A stretch of DNA of 64,000 bases from Pseudomonas mandelii. Its GTDB lineage: Bacteria > Pseudomonadota > Gammaproteobacteria > Pseudomonadales > Pseudomonadaceae. The notes under the pieces are model-generated. The model did no database searches. It worked only from the letters and a program-made list of their open reading frames with translations, and was not told the DNA's origin. Below are positions 19,106 through 22,274 of this stretch, one piece after another. Every line of letters starts with the position of its first letter. The stretch's first letter is position 1. The stretch lies in contig NZ_LT629796.1 of assembly GCF_900106065.1 (NCBI RefSeq), forward strand, positions 5,928,501 to 5,992,500, read 5' to 3'. The position numbers and the translations under genes were made by a program.

Positions 19106-19801
19106 TTACCCCCGTAACACGAAAGCGGGAAACAGCTCGCGCATGGCTTCCCATAAGTCAGGTAGCAAGGCTTGTGCCGAAACACTCGGCAGCAACGGGT
19201 CGAACATCCGCTCGGTGCGAACCAGTTGCACGGCGAAACGCTTGACGCCGAGTTCGCTCAAGCGCTTGGCAAGGATCAGCAGACGCGCCGGTTCAAACAG
19301 ATGCCAGTGCACGGTGGTACGACATTCATAATCGACACCACTGGCCAGCAGATGCTCAAGACTGCGCCAATTGGCGGTACCGCTGCCTTCGACCCGGGTG
19401 ATCGCCTGGCAATCCTCCGGCAGCGCCTTCACATCGAAGCCAACCCAATCAGCGCCAGGCAATGCCTTGGCGAACGCAACCGGCTTGATACCGGCACTGT
19501 GCAAACCAATGCGAAACCCCATCGCCCGCACCTCCTCCATGGCGCCGAGCAAACCGTCCTGCAGGGTCGGCTCACCGCCACTGAACACCACCGCATCGAG
19601 CAGGTCCTGACGCCGTTGCAGAAACGCCAGCACCCGCCGCCAATCCACTTCGTCTGTGCCACGAGGCGGGATCAACTGCGGGTTATGGCAGTAACGACAA
19701 CGCCAGGCGCAACCCTGGCAAAACAGCACGCAGGCGAGCTGTCCCGGATAGTCGATAGTGGTCAGGGGCACCATGCCCCCGACCCGAAGCGTTCGACTCA
19801 T
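19106..19801 (-). CDS. nrdG: Anaerobic ribonucleotide reductase activating enzyme NrdG
   Basis: A 231-residue radical SAM protein that installs the glycyl radical on class III ribonucleotide reductase. The CxxxCxxC motif is C31-AWR-C35-RY-C38 in FCQGCAWRCRYCHNPQLIPP, followed by FSGGEPTLQ. Its ATG (19801) overlaps the TGA of the small glycyl-radical ORF by four bases, so the activase is translationally coupled to its target peptide. Confidence 0.93.
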   Translation of the reverse strand: MSRTLRVGGMVPLTTIDYPGQLACVLFCQGCAWRCRYCHNPQLIPPRGTDEVDWRRVLAFLQRRQDLLDAVVFSGGEPTLQDGLLGAMEEVRAMGFRIGLHSAGIKPVAFAKALPGADWVGFDVKALPEDCQAITRVEGSGTANWRSLEHLLASGVDYECRTTVHWHLFEPARLLILAKRLSELGVKRFAVQLVRTERMFDPLLPSVSAQALLPDLWEAMRELFPAFVLRG

Positions 19802-19965
19802 TGGCGCCCGGCCAGCGGCGCGCTTTCAGTAAAGTGCACCCGCTCACGGTGCTCCGACTGTTTACCCGGATTGAACGCCGACACAGGGCGGTGATAGCCC
19901 ATCACCCGGGTCCAGACTTCGCAGCGTTGACGTTGAGCCTGGGGCAGTGCTTGCGATGCAGTCAT
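19798..19965 (-). CDS. Separate glycyl-radical domain peptide of class III ribonucleotide reductase
   Basis: A 55-residue protein containing CEVWTRVMGYHRPVSAFNPG, the C-terminal glycyl-radical segment of class III NrdD (RVxGY; the radical would be on Gly23). The preceding nrdD frame stops before this segment. The peptide is in the same frame as nrdD, separated by one TGA and ten sense codons. It has its own strong Shine-Dalgarno AAGGAG (19973-19978) seven bases before the ATG, and overlaps nrdG by four bases. These signals argue for a genuine split gene rather than a sequencing error. How it docks on NrdD is unknown. Confidence 0.8.
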   Translation of the reverse strand: MTASQALPQAQRQRCEVWTRVMGYHRPVSAFNPGKQSEHRERVHFTESAPLAGRQ

Positions 19966-19995
19966 GGTGAAGCTCCTTGCGGTTGAGTGGATCGA

Positions 19996-22011
19996 TCAAT
20001 GAACGGTGCCGAGCTTCTGTTCTTGCAGCAGCAAGACCTCGTCGCATTTGGGGCAGAACTCATGCTCGCCATCGAGGTAGCCGTGCACCGGGCAGATGGA
20101 GAACGTCGGGGTCACGGTCAGGTACGGCAGGCGGAAGCGGCCAAGCGCTTTGCGCACCAGTTGCTTGCACGCCTCGGTCGAGGAAATCCGCTCGGCCATG
20201 TACAGATGCAAGACGGTGCCGCCGGTGTATTTGCATTGCAGTTCGTCTTGAAGCTCCAGGGCCTCGAAGGGGTCTTCGGTGTAGCCCACGGGCAGTTGGG
20301 AAGAGTTGGTGTAATACGGCGCTTGCACGCTGCCAGCCTGGAGAATGCCGGGGTAACGCTTGAGGTCTTCCTTGGCGAAGCGGTAAGTCGTGCCCTCGGC
20401 CGGCGTCGCTTCCAGGTTGTACATGTGGCCGGTTTCCTCTTGGAAACGCAGCAACGTGGCGCGCACATGATCGAGCATGTTCAGGGCAAACTGCCGGCCA
20501 TGCTCGGTGTGCATGCCCTCCTCGTCGCCGGTGAAATTGCGCAGCATTTCATGCATGCCGTTGAGGCCGATGGTCGAGAAATGGTTGCGCAGGGTTCCGA
20601 GGTAGCGCTTGGTGTACGGGTACAAACCGGCATCCATGTGGTGCTGAATCACCTTGCGCTTGACCTCCAGGCTTTCCATCGCCAGTTCCATCAGTGTGTC
20701 CAGGCGCTGCAATAATCCACTGGTATCACCCTTGAACACATACCCCAGCCGTGCGCAGTTGATGGTGACAACGCCAAGCGATCCGGTCTGTTCCGCTGAG
20801 CCGAACAAGCCGCCGCCACGCTTGAGCAACTCGCGCACATCGAGCTGCAAACGGCAGCACATTGAACGCACCTGATTGGGTTGCAGATCAGAATTGAGGA
20901 AGTTCTGGAAATACGGCAGGCCGTACCGCGCGGTCATCTCGAACAGACGATCGGCGTTTTCACTGTCCCACGGAAAGTCATGGGTGATGTTGTAGGTCGG
21001 GATCGGAAAGGTGAATACCCGCCCTTTCGCGTCGCCGGCCTGCATCACTTCGATGTAAGCGCGGTTGAGCAGCTCCATTTCGGCTTGCAGGTCACCATAG
21101 GCAAACGGCATTTCTTCACCGCCGATGACGGGTATTTGCTCACGCAAATCCTGGGGGCACACCCAGTCGAAGGTCAGGTTGGTAAATGGCGTCTGCGTGC
21201 CCCAGCGTGACGGTACGTTGAGGTTGTAGATGAACTCCTGGATCGCCTGGCGTACTTCCTGAAAACTCAGTTGATCCTTGCGCACGTAGGGCGCCAGATA
21301 GGTGTCGAACGAGCTGAACGCCTGGGCACCGGCCCATTCGTTTTGCAGGGTGCCGAGAAAATTCACCATCTGCCCCAAGGCACTGCTCAAGTGCTTTGGC
21401 GGACCGGCTTCAACACGCCCCGGCACACCGTTGAGCCCTTCGTGCAACAGGGTGCGCAGCGACCAGCCGGCGCAGTAACCGGCGAGCATGTCGAGGTCGT
21501 GCACATGCAAATCCGCCTCGCGGTGGGCCTGGCCTATGGCCTCGCTGTACACCTCGTCCAGCCAGTAGTTGGCAGTGACCTTGCCCGACACGTTCAACAC
21601 CAGTCCGCCCAGTGAATACCCCTGATTGGCGTTGGCCTGGACCCGCCAGTCTTCACGGTCCAGGTATTCGTTCATCGAAGTCGCCACCTCGACCATGGTC
21701 CGGCGGTCGCGGCGCAAGCGCCCGTGCTGTTCGCGGTAGACGATGTAGGCACGCATGGCGAGGAAATATCCGGCGTCCATCAACACCCGTTCAACACGGT
21801 CCTGGATTTGCTCGACATGGAGTCTTGGCAAACCTTCGAGCCTGGCCAATACCGCGTTAAGCAAGCCTTCAACCTCAACCTCGGCGTACTCCCCCGTCGC
21901 CTTGCCGGCGGCGATCAATGCCTGACGGATTTTGTCGGCATCGAAGGCGACCTGACTGCCATCGCGTTTGTGCAAGCGGTTACATCCTACTGCGATCAGC
22001 GTGCTTTGCAT
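19996..22011 (-). CDS. nrdD: Anaerobic ribonucleoside-triphosphate reductase NrdD, lacking the glycyl-radical C terminus
   Basis: Makes deoxynucleotides without oxygen. It has 671 residues from ATG 22011 (GGAGG nine bases before). An N-terminal ATP-cone (about 8-95; LHKRDGSQVAFDADKIRQAL) carries allosteric control. The catalytic barrel includes MCCRLQLDVRELLKRGGG, GLNGMHEMLRNFTGDEEG and TPTFSICPVHGYLDGEHEF. A zinc-type CPKCD lies close to the end, and the protein stops at QKLGTVH. The RVxGY glycyl-radical loop normally found just after is encoded by the next small ORF. An ANR/FNR box precedes it. Confidence 0.92.
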   Translation of the reverse strand: MQSTLIAVGCNRLHKRDGSQVAFDADKIRQALIAAGKATGEYAEVEVEGLLNAVLARLEGLPRLHVEQIQDRVERVLMDAGYFLAMRAYIVYREQHGRLRRDRRTMVEVATSMNEYLDREDWRVQANANQGYSLGGLVLNVSGKVTANYWLDEVYSEAIGQAHREADLHVHDLDMLAGYCAGWSLRTLLHEGLNGVPGRVEAGPPKHLSSALGQMVNFLGTLQNEWAGAQAFSSFDTYLAPYVRKDQLSFQEVRQAIQEFIYNLNVPSRWGTQTPFTNLTFDWVCPQDLREQIPVIGGEEMPFAYGDLQAEMELLNRAYIEVMQAGDAKGRVFTFPIPTYNITHDFPWDSENADRLFEMTARYGLPYFQNFLNSDLQPNQVRSMCCRLQLDVRELLKRGGGLFGSAEQTGSLGVVTINCARLGYVFKGDTSGLLQRLDTLMELAMESLEVKRKVIQHHMDAGLYPYTKRYLGTLRNHFSTIGLNGMHEMLRNFTGDEEGMHTEHGRQFALNMLDHVRATLLRFQEETGHMYNLEATPAEGTTYRFAKEDLKRYPGILQAGSVQAPYYTNSSQLPVGYTEDPFEALELQDELQCKYTGGTVLHLYMAERISSTEACKQLVRKALGRFRLPYLTVTPTFSICPVHGYLDGEHEFCPKCDEVLLLQEQKLGTVH

Positions 22012-22097: not shown

Positions 22098-22111
22098 TTG
22101 ATCGACATCAA
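22098..22111. promoter_or_regulatory. ANR/FNR box upstream of nrdD
   Basis: TTGATCGACATCAA is a perfect match to the TTGAT-N4-ATCAA consensus, centred 93 bases before the nrdD ATG. This fits oxygen-limitation induction of the anaerobic reductase. Confidence 0.85.
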
Positions 22112-22158
22112 GATTCCCCGGCGAAAGAACGTCCGATAACGGCAGAAGAAAATCTAAT

Positions 22159-22248
22159 GTGGGAGCGAGCCTGCTCGCGATGACTGCAGCACGCTCAACA
22201 TTGATGTCGATTGTTCTACCGCTATCGCGAGCAGGCTCGCTCCCACAG
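22159..22248. repeat. Paired REP palindromes
   Basis: GTGGGAGCGAGCCTGCTCGC (from 22159) and its inverted partner GCGAGCAGGCTCGCTCCCAC (ending near 22247) face each other across about 40 bases. This is the common Pseudomonas REP doublet, between nrdD and moaA. Confidence 0.9.
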
Positions 22249-22274
22249 TGATTTGCTGTGTTTTACAGATCAGC

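Follow-up and report, generated by a model that had tools for sequence, protein, structure and literature searches.

To our knowledge, glycyl-radical enzymes carry the radical residue on the catalytic chain itself, and damage by oxygen costs the cell the whole enzyme unless a spare part is available. A review and papers on Pseudomonas aeruginosa describe class III ribonucleotide reductase as nrdD plus nrdG; within the NrdDh subclass of RNRdb2 the T. maritima enzyme belongs to group h1 and that of N. bacilliformis to group h3 (PMC4493059). YfiD/GrcA and phage T4 Y06I are spare parts for pyruvate formate-lyase damaged by oxygen (PMC8683613). P. aeruginosa also possesses a split class II reductase, NrdJa–NrdJb, in which NrdJb mediates disulfide exchange (PMC4520616), and phage nrdD genes can be split by introns or otherwise fragmented (PMC3653736). 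Here we describe a class III ribonucleotide reductase locus in a 64,000-nucleotide stretch of the Pseudomonas mandelii genome (NCBI RefSeq assembly GCF_900106065.1, contig NZ_LT629796.1, positions 5,928,501 to 5,992,500 of the forward strand; hereafter the window) in which the glycyl-radical loop is encoded by a small gene of its own. We read its product as an obligate two-chain class III ribonucleotide reductase and put the probability of this reading at roughly 0.9.

In the window the enzyme is encoded by three close-packed genes on the minus strand: nrdD, the peptide gene and nrdG (Table 1). The NrdD chain has the architecture of a class III enzyme, with an ATP-cone (PF03477, 67 bits), an NRDD barrel (PF13597, 580 bits) bearing an MCCR finger-loop motif, and a zinc ribbon, CPVHGYLDGEHEFCPKC, and it scores 1124.7 bits against the family profile NF006126 (cut-off 548); the zinc ribbon (CPVH...CPKC) and the finger-loop cysteine motif are predicted from sequence. 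The chain ends in ...CPVHGYLDGEHEFCPKCDEVLLLQEQKLGTVH, 15 residues past the CPKC, and neither its sequence nor its PF13597 match contains a glycyl-radical loop. A class III catalytic chain is expected to end in its own radical loop, and NrdD therefore lacks this hallmark. That loop, WTRVMGYHRPV (including RVMGYHRP), is carried by the 55-residue peptide, and the two products divide the 562 positions of PF13597 almost without a gap, NrdD covering 2–528 and the peptide 531–562. Judged by these profiles, NrdD alone is not a canonical NrdD, and NrdD and peptide jointly hold all the parts. The product of nrdG, which adjoins the peptide gene, scores 209 bits in TIGR02495 (cut-off 131.15), as expected of an NrdG activase. 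An earlier note, made from the letters of the window alone, had read most of this layout correctly: a radical domain on a separate 55-residue peptide, an RVMGYH loop in frame beyond a single TGA, an AAGGAG seven bases before the peptide ATG, and a four-base overlap with nrdG, which is the ATGA at 19801-19798 common to the peptide stop and the nrdG start. Its statement that NrdD ends right after CPKC was slightly too strong.

Table 1. Features of the class III ribonucleotide reductase locus, in window coordinates.
Feature	Coordinates	Strand	Basis or remark
nrdD, catalytic chain, 671 residues	19996..22011	-	open reading frame and profiles; stop TGA 19998-19996
Spacer from nrdD stop to peptide ATG, 30 nt	19966..19995	-	read from sequence
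Shine-Dalgarno sequence AAGGAG, 7 nt 5' of peptide ATG	19973..19978	-	read from sequence
Glycyl-radical peptide gene, 55 residues; predicted radical Gly23, codon 19899-19897	19798..19965	-	PF13597 531-562
nrdG, radical S-adenosylmethionine activase, NrdG2 type	19106..19801	-	TIGR02495
Perfect TTGATN4ATCAA box, 86 bases upstream of nrdD ATG	22098..22111	+	motif scan

A free-standing, short peptide with an intact radical loop is also what one would expect of a strict spare part of the YfiD/GrcA type, mending an enzyme already equipped with a radical domain, and virus-borne copies of the peptide (below) do resemble spare parts. Yet the NrdD of this operon has no loop of its own, so that there the peptide must be the normal carrier of the radical, and the sole match of the peptide in Pfam at E 0.001 is PF13597 NRDD, with no match to the pyruvate formate-lyase-type families. 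Since neither the homology nor the kind of partner that defines YfiD/GrcA is found here, we consider a strict spare part very unlikely.

In a set of 208 loci weighted towards Pseudomonas, a script called 172 split and 5 fused, with 31 unplaced; removal of 7 repeats gave 165 distinct split loci with 150 distinct peptide genes. On inspection, L049, L066, L092, L119 and L193 among the unplaced loci were split and L196 was fused, L093 had a stop within the peptide, L185 had no adjoining peptide, L163 and L168 ran into repeats or a contig end, L059 was cut, and the remainder were other reductases or other kinds of NrdD. Were read-through or a frameshift to join the two frames, the working enzyme would be a single chain, and the peptide frame does follow nrdD in frame past one TGA in the window and lies in frame in 33 of the 150 peptide genes. 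In the other 117, however, it is out of frame (relative frames 33/55/62), and over all 150 the spacer between nrdD and peptide runs from −38 to +258 nt with a median of 32. A Shine-Dalgarno match of at least 5 bases at a spacing of 5–9 nt precedes 137 of the 150 peptide starts, a count that falls to 122 of 150 when the start is always set at the ATG closest to the loop; the same rule applied to control ATGs gave 229 matches in 7028, from which about 8 in 150 would be expected. Of the 157 loci in which nrdG was placed, 88 have its start at offset −4 and 144 have it no more than 40 nt from the peptide stop. In one genome (G902), nrdD (contig C4, ~22.5–24.5 kb) has no peptide in the next 1.5 kb, and the peptide, directly followed by nrdG, stands on the same strand at a distance of about 9 kb (L220, L217); it is therefore a gene of its own. 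Because 117 of the 150 peptide genes are out of frame and the G902 peptide is so distant, read-through is not the general mechanism, and the frames, spacers, Shine-Dalgarno counts and nrdG offsets together mark the in-frame TGA of the window, correctly observed in the earlier note and of little weight, as a coincidence. A single chain made in this way is highly improbable.

Purifying selection acts on the peptide genes, with a ratio of nonsynonymous to synonymous differences (pN/pS) of 0.18 over 1500 random pairs, pS being near saturation. Each of the loop residues R, V, M, G and Y is present in 147 of 148 peptide cores. One of the 148 cores is a misreading by the script, and conservation of the glycine and loop is partly built in, since the motif search asks for RVxGY-like loops. 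A cysteine before the loop (Cys15 of the window peptide) is found in 147 of 148 cellular cores and in 57 of 61 virus cores, and none of the fused alphaproteobacterial rows shown has this peptide-type cysteine. Such a cysteine may do something extra and would suit a regulatory or other role for the peptide, with the truncated NrdD relying on a different initiator, but the peptide retains the residues that mark the radical loop of an NrdD and its gene is closely coupled to nrdG, and we find that alternative barely credible.

The split is not confined to a few sequences. Strong NrdD matches (at least 987 bits) occur in 23 of 115 related genomes: 18 come from the 71 genomes of the genus and 5 from other families in the order. 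All 23 (18 of 18 within the genus) are split. The NrdD family profile is matched in 53 of 148 Pseudomonadaceae genomes, and none of these 53, one of which (G559) is a fragment without the C-terminus, runs uninterrupted to the profile end (~682). Uninterrupted relatives, which the earlier note had named as what would overturn its reading, were thus met only outside the Pseudomonadaceae. A class-level search gave a peptide match in 35 of 369 genomes, a few of them within long open frames, which are fused NrdDs, and among 398 genomes sampled across the phylum, 16 exceeded the family cut-off, 13 of them split and 3 fused. A scan of genome contigs yielded at least 80 further loci, mostly from Pseudomonas and Stutzerimonas with some from Halopseudomonas and Thioalkalivibrio; 78 of the 80 are split (77 by script, L119 by eye) and none is fused, L163 and L168 being left unplaced where nrdD runs into repeats or the contig end. 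Neither these 80 loci nor the 14 control genomes include P. aeruginosa, and our claims concern the species sampled. In L163 (Pseudomonas lini CC269) a long run of repeats follows nrdD to the contig end, where the peptide gene would be expected. Three separate genes are found in annotated complete plasmids of Cupriavidus necator H16 (pHG1), Sulfuricurvum kujiense (Campylobacterota) and Azospira, and the split can also be read from unannotated or partly annotated DNA of Paracoccus denitrificans, C. metallidurans and Cereibacter. By sequence, then, alpha-, beta- and gammaproteobacteria as well as Campylobacterota include members with the split. The comparison across Pseudomonas proposed in the earlier note found the locus split in all the strong matches of the genus sample, in an arrangement that is not special to Pseudomonas. 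Clusters of short homologues of the peptide number 2054, of which 120 were examined and some may be proteins cut by contig ends. As a separate observation, split nrdD genes are retained in genomes of ~0.9 Mb, L193 (G808) and L186 (G779), the former with the loop variant RSMGF. Sequencing error or gene decay leaving NrdD merely truncated could appeal to the interrupting TGA, to one internal stop in a peptide gene and to two broken plasmid copies of nrdD, and is a negligible alternative that is refuted by the relatives: the split recurs in every strong match of the 71-genome genus sample, in other families of the order and in annotated complete plasmids, under purifying selection.

Fused relatives exist, among them Actinomyces oris and Acidiphilium, and a search with the fused NrdD L195 gave 120 matches listed, all with the loop in the same chain, the named ones mostly from Alphaproteobacteria. 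On a quick-method tree built from 73 representatives, of which 54 are split and 19 fused, the split/fused label changes at least four times, three of the changes being forced by well-supported branches. One large group holds most split rows, 53 split with 2 fused; these two, Actinomyces and Acidiphilium, lie inside it and keep the peptide-type cysteine (ECEVW, ACEVW), as would be expected after re-fusion, placements that are provisional. Of the 165 split NrdDs, 49 have at least two cysteines in the short tail after the zinc ribbon (L018, L075, L078, L091); examples such as CCGACG, CSSC and SCCGG recall the redox tails of class I and II reductases, and the tail in the window has none.

Aligned to T. 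maritima NrdD, whose radical glycine is residue 621 (PMC4493059), the window NrdD stops at residue 611. An AlphaFold model of the read-through chain has a mean predicted local distance difference test score (pLDDT) of 83.7, with the linker 669–686 below 50 and blocks in 691–730 at 79–87. By end offsets, Gly704 of the model, which is Gly23 of the peptide, falls on Gly580 of the T4 enzyme in five of five T4 rows and on Gly621 of T. maritima in three of five rows. The peptide alone, compared by sequence with solved structures, gave no match at E 1. Gene separation, translation signals proper to the peptide, conservation, selection and structural compatibility are what the data show directly, and the suggestion of the earlier note that the reductase is permanently built in this way is borne out by the comparative evidence.

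Several points weigh against an obligate two-chain enzyme. One peptide gene (L093, genome G589) has a TAG directly after RVMG, which is either an error in a metagenome-assembled genome or a broken copy. In two plasmid records nrdD itself is broken, with 84 codons open at the end in Bradyrhizobium japonicum p2S06B (L066) and 321 codons open at the end in Thiothrix pTfr153 (L069); peptide and nrdG are nevertheless annotated in both. The unlinked arrangement is that of G902 only. As to structure, the remaining two T. maritima rows are off by one and by two residues, some class III structure rows end before the loop, and the model is of an artificial single chain, aided by fused relatives, so that it speaks to compatibility and not to binding in trans. 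Finally, the peptide is known here from genes and a predicted fold.

Physical assembly, location of the radical, catalysis and exchange are matters that we infer. In the mechanism we propose, NrdD would contribute the ATP-cone, barrel, finger loop and zinc ribbon, and the separately translated 55-residue peptide would dock at the site occupied in an ordinary NrdD by the C-terminal radical domain, with Gly23 reaching into the barrel as the tip of the radical loop. The radical would be made on Gly23 by NrdG, and catalysis would start via the finger-loop cysteine. Because oxygen cleaves glycyl radicals at the glycine, oxygen damage would destroy the peptide only, and cheap replacement would become possible. 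C. eutrophus H16 is reported to need its NrdDG for complete denitrification (PMC2864759, citing Siedow 1999), and since the H16 operon is split, the split enzyme presumably works in vivo; the H16 genetics are consistent with anaerobic nucleoside triphosphate reduction by such an enzyme. The same paper gives Rmet_5137 and Rmet_5139 for NrdDG of strain CH34, so that one locus tag between them is passed over.

The peptide also occurs away from nrdD. Genome G380 has a second free peptide (L218:3803-3991, contig C3) on a contig other than that of the operon copy. It lies between SSB and RecT genes, in a phage-like context, near a class I/II-type reductase gene that is partial in the stretch. A scan of viral contigs with this second peptide gave 141 matching stretches, 140 of them confirmed, of which the best 80 loci were kept (L221-L300); the patterns scanned for were exact and 8 residues long, VMGYHRPV among them, which inflates conservation. 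From these loci 50 whole virus records (G984-G1033) were chosen, all of them fragments and several below 10 kb, many of the 30 loci left out being near-identical or short. In 49 of the 50 the NRDD match is limited to the last ~30 positions; the exception, G1003, also has an NrdD body and provides the only NrdG2 match among the 50 records, a weak one. No class I or II reductase catalytic domain was found in any of the 50. The script flagged three of the 80 loci as carrying NrdD, which was confirmed in L246 alone; the matched frame of L229 is not NrdD, and L230 shares the L229 peptide. Twenty neighbour proteins from 10 virus loci comprised six assigned to known phage functions, namely portal, neck, head protease, amidase, tail fibre and reverse transcriptase, five in families of unknown function and nine without a match.

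All 61 distinct virus cores have RVMGY and RP, with a pN/pS of 0.27. The family phrog_4132, annotated as "unknown function", was matched by six of six peptides compared with it, five of which come from outside the window, and a collection of isolated phages gave two distant radical-loop matches. Standing somewhat apart is a 144-residue protein of the ANMV-1 virus (KP703175, 25525-25959; L301:2686-3120), which combines CxxC motifs with a radical loop and is the only one of 69 annotated features to be named a reductase; it has been taken as an oxygen-sensitive ribonucleotide reductase, from which an anaerobic host was inferred (PMC4372165). The simplest reading of the virus copies, by analogy with T4 Y06I, is that they may serve as a spare radical part for the host reductase. 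A further step would be that an exchangeable cartridge has become mobile, with phage or prophage peptides re-arming the host class III reductase after exposure to oxygen or during infection and phrog_4132 representing the spare part, a proposal that we find evenly poised.

Upstream of nrdD, on the same strand, lie moaA, a gene for a PpiC-type isomerase, narI, narJ, narH and narG. The window contains three perfect and six one-mismatch TTGATN4ATCAA matches, against a mean of 1.12 in shuffles, and we take the perfect box upstream of nrdD to be of the Anr/Dnr/FNR type. The P. aeruginosa nrdDG promoter has a Dnr box (PMC5645315). Between nrdD and moaA, an inverted repeat pair of GCGAGCAGGCTCGCTCCCAC-type was seen by eye at 22155-22250. 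Repeats of this type are presumably repetitive extragenic palindrome (REP)/REPIN-like.

We found no description of an NrdD with a separate radical peptide, and no biochemistry of such a pair, in the literature searched, which covered parts of papers and lay outside the original reports on N. bacilliformis NrdD and H16 nrdDG. The peptide gene is already annotated, and the two-chain enzyme seems undescribed in that literature. NCBI and plasmid records give the name "nrdD" to the small peptide and call the large chain only "ribonucleoside triphosphate reductase"; a clone with the large frame and nrdG that omitted the small gene would lack the radical site. If our reading is right, many denitrifiers seem to have a central DNA-synthesis enzyme whose radical sits on a disposable chain of ~50–70 residues, a simple design for life at the oxic–anoxic border. 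The arrangement would also offer an experimental handle, in that addition, mutation or labelling could be confined to the chain that bears the radical, and with the virus copies the repair of a reductase by a spare part becomes open to direct test.

Compared with known systems, the locus differs from canonical NrdD plus NrdG, as in T. maritima, phage T4, P. copri and S. thermophilus, in that the loop is on a separate 55-residue chain with its own start. Its catalytic chain resembles group h4 of the NrdDh subclass in RNRdb2, by comparison with the published description: the window NrdD has MCCR and a Phe-containing finger-loop motif, GLFGSAE, features also read in relatives, and its zinc motif, C-x2-H-x9-C-x2-C, is close to the C-x3-H-x6-C-x2-C of T. 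maritima. The part of PMC4493059 consulted mentions no split. Intron-split or fragmented phage nrdD genes are a different phenomenon from a separate radical peptide. Like NrdJa–NrdJb, the enzyme would be a two-chain ribonucleotide reductase encoded by one operon, in Pseudomonas and other Proteobacteria; unlike it, the catalytic chain is NRDD and not NrdJ, and NrdJa–NrdJb is a class II enzyme whose NrdJb does not store a radical. With YfiD/GrcA and Y06I it has in common a small free-standing glycyl-radical protein, a phage-borne version and, putatively, replacement of the radical part, whereas the partner of YfiD has its own radical domain, the cellular NrdD here has none, and the peptide belongs to the NRDD family. 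Should the proposed repair of host reductases be true, the virus peptide would be the ribonucleotide reductase counterpart of phage T4 Y06I.

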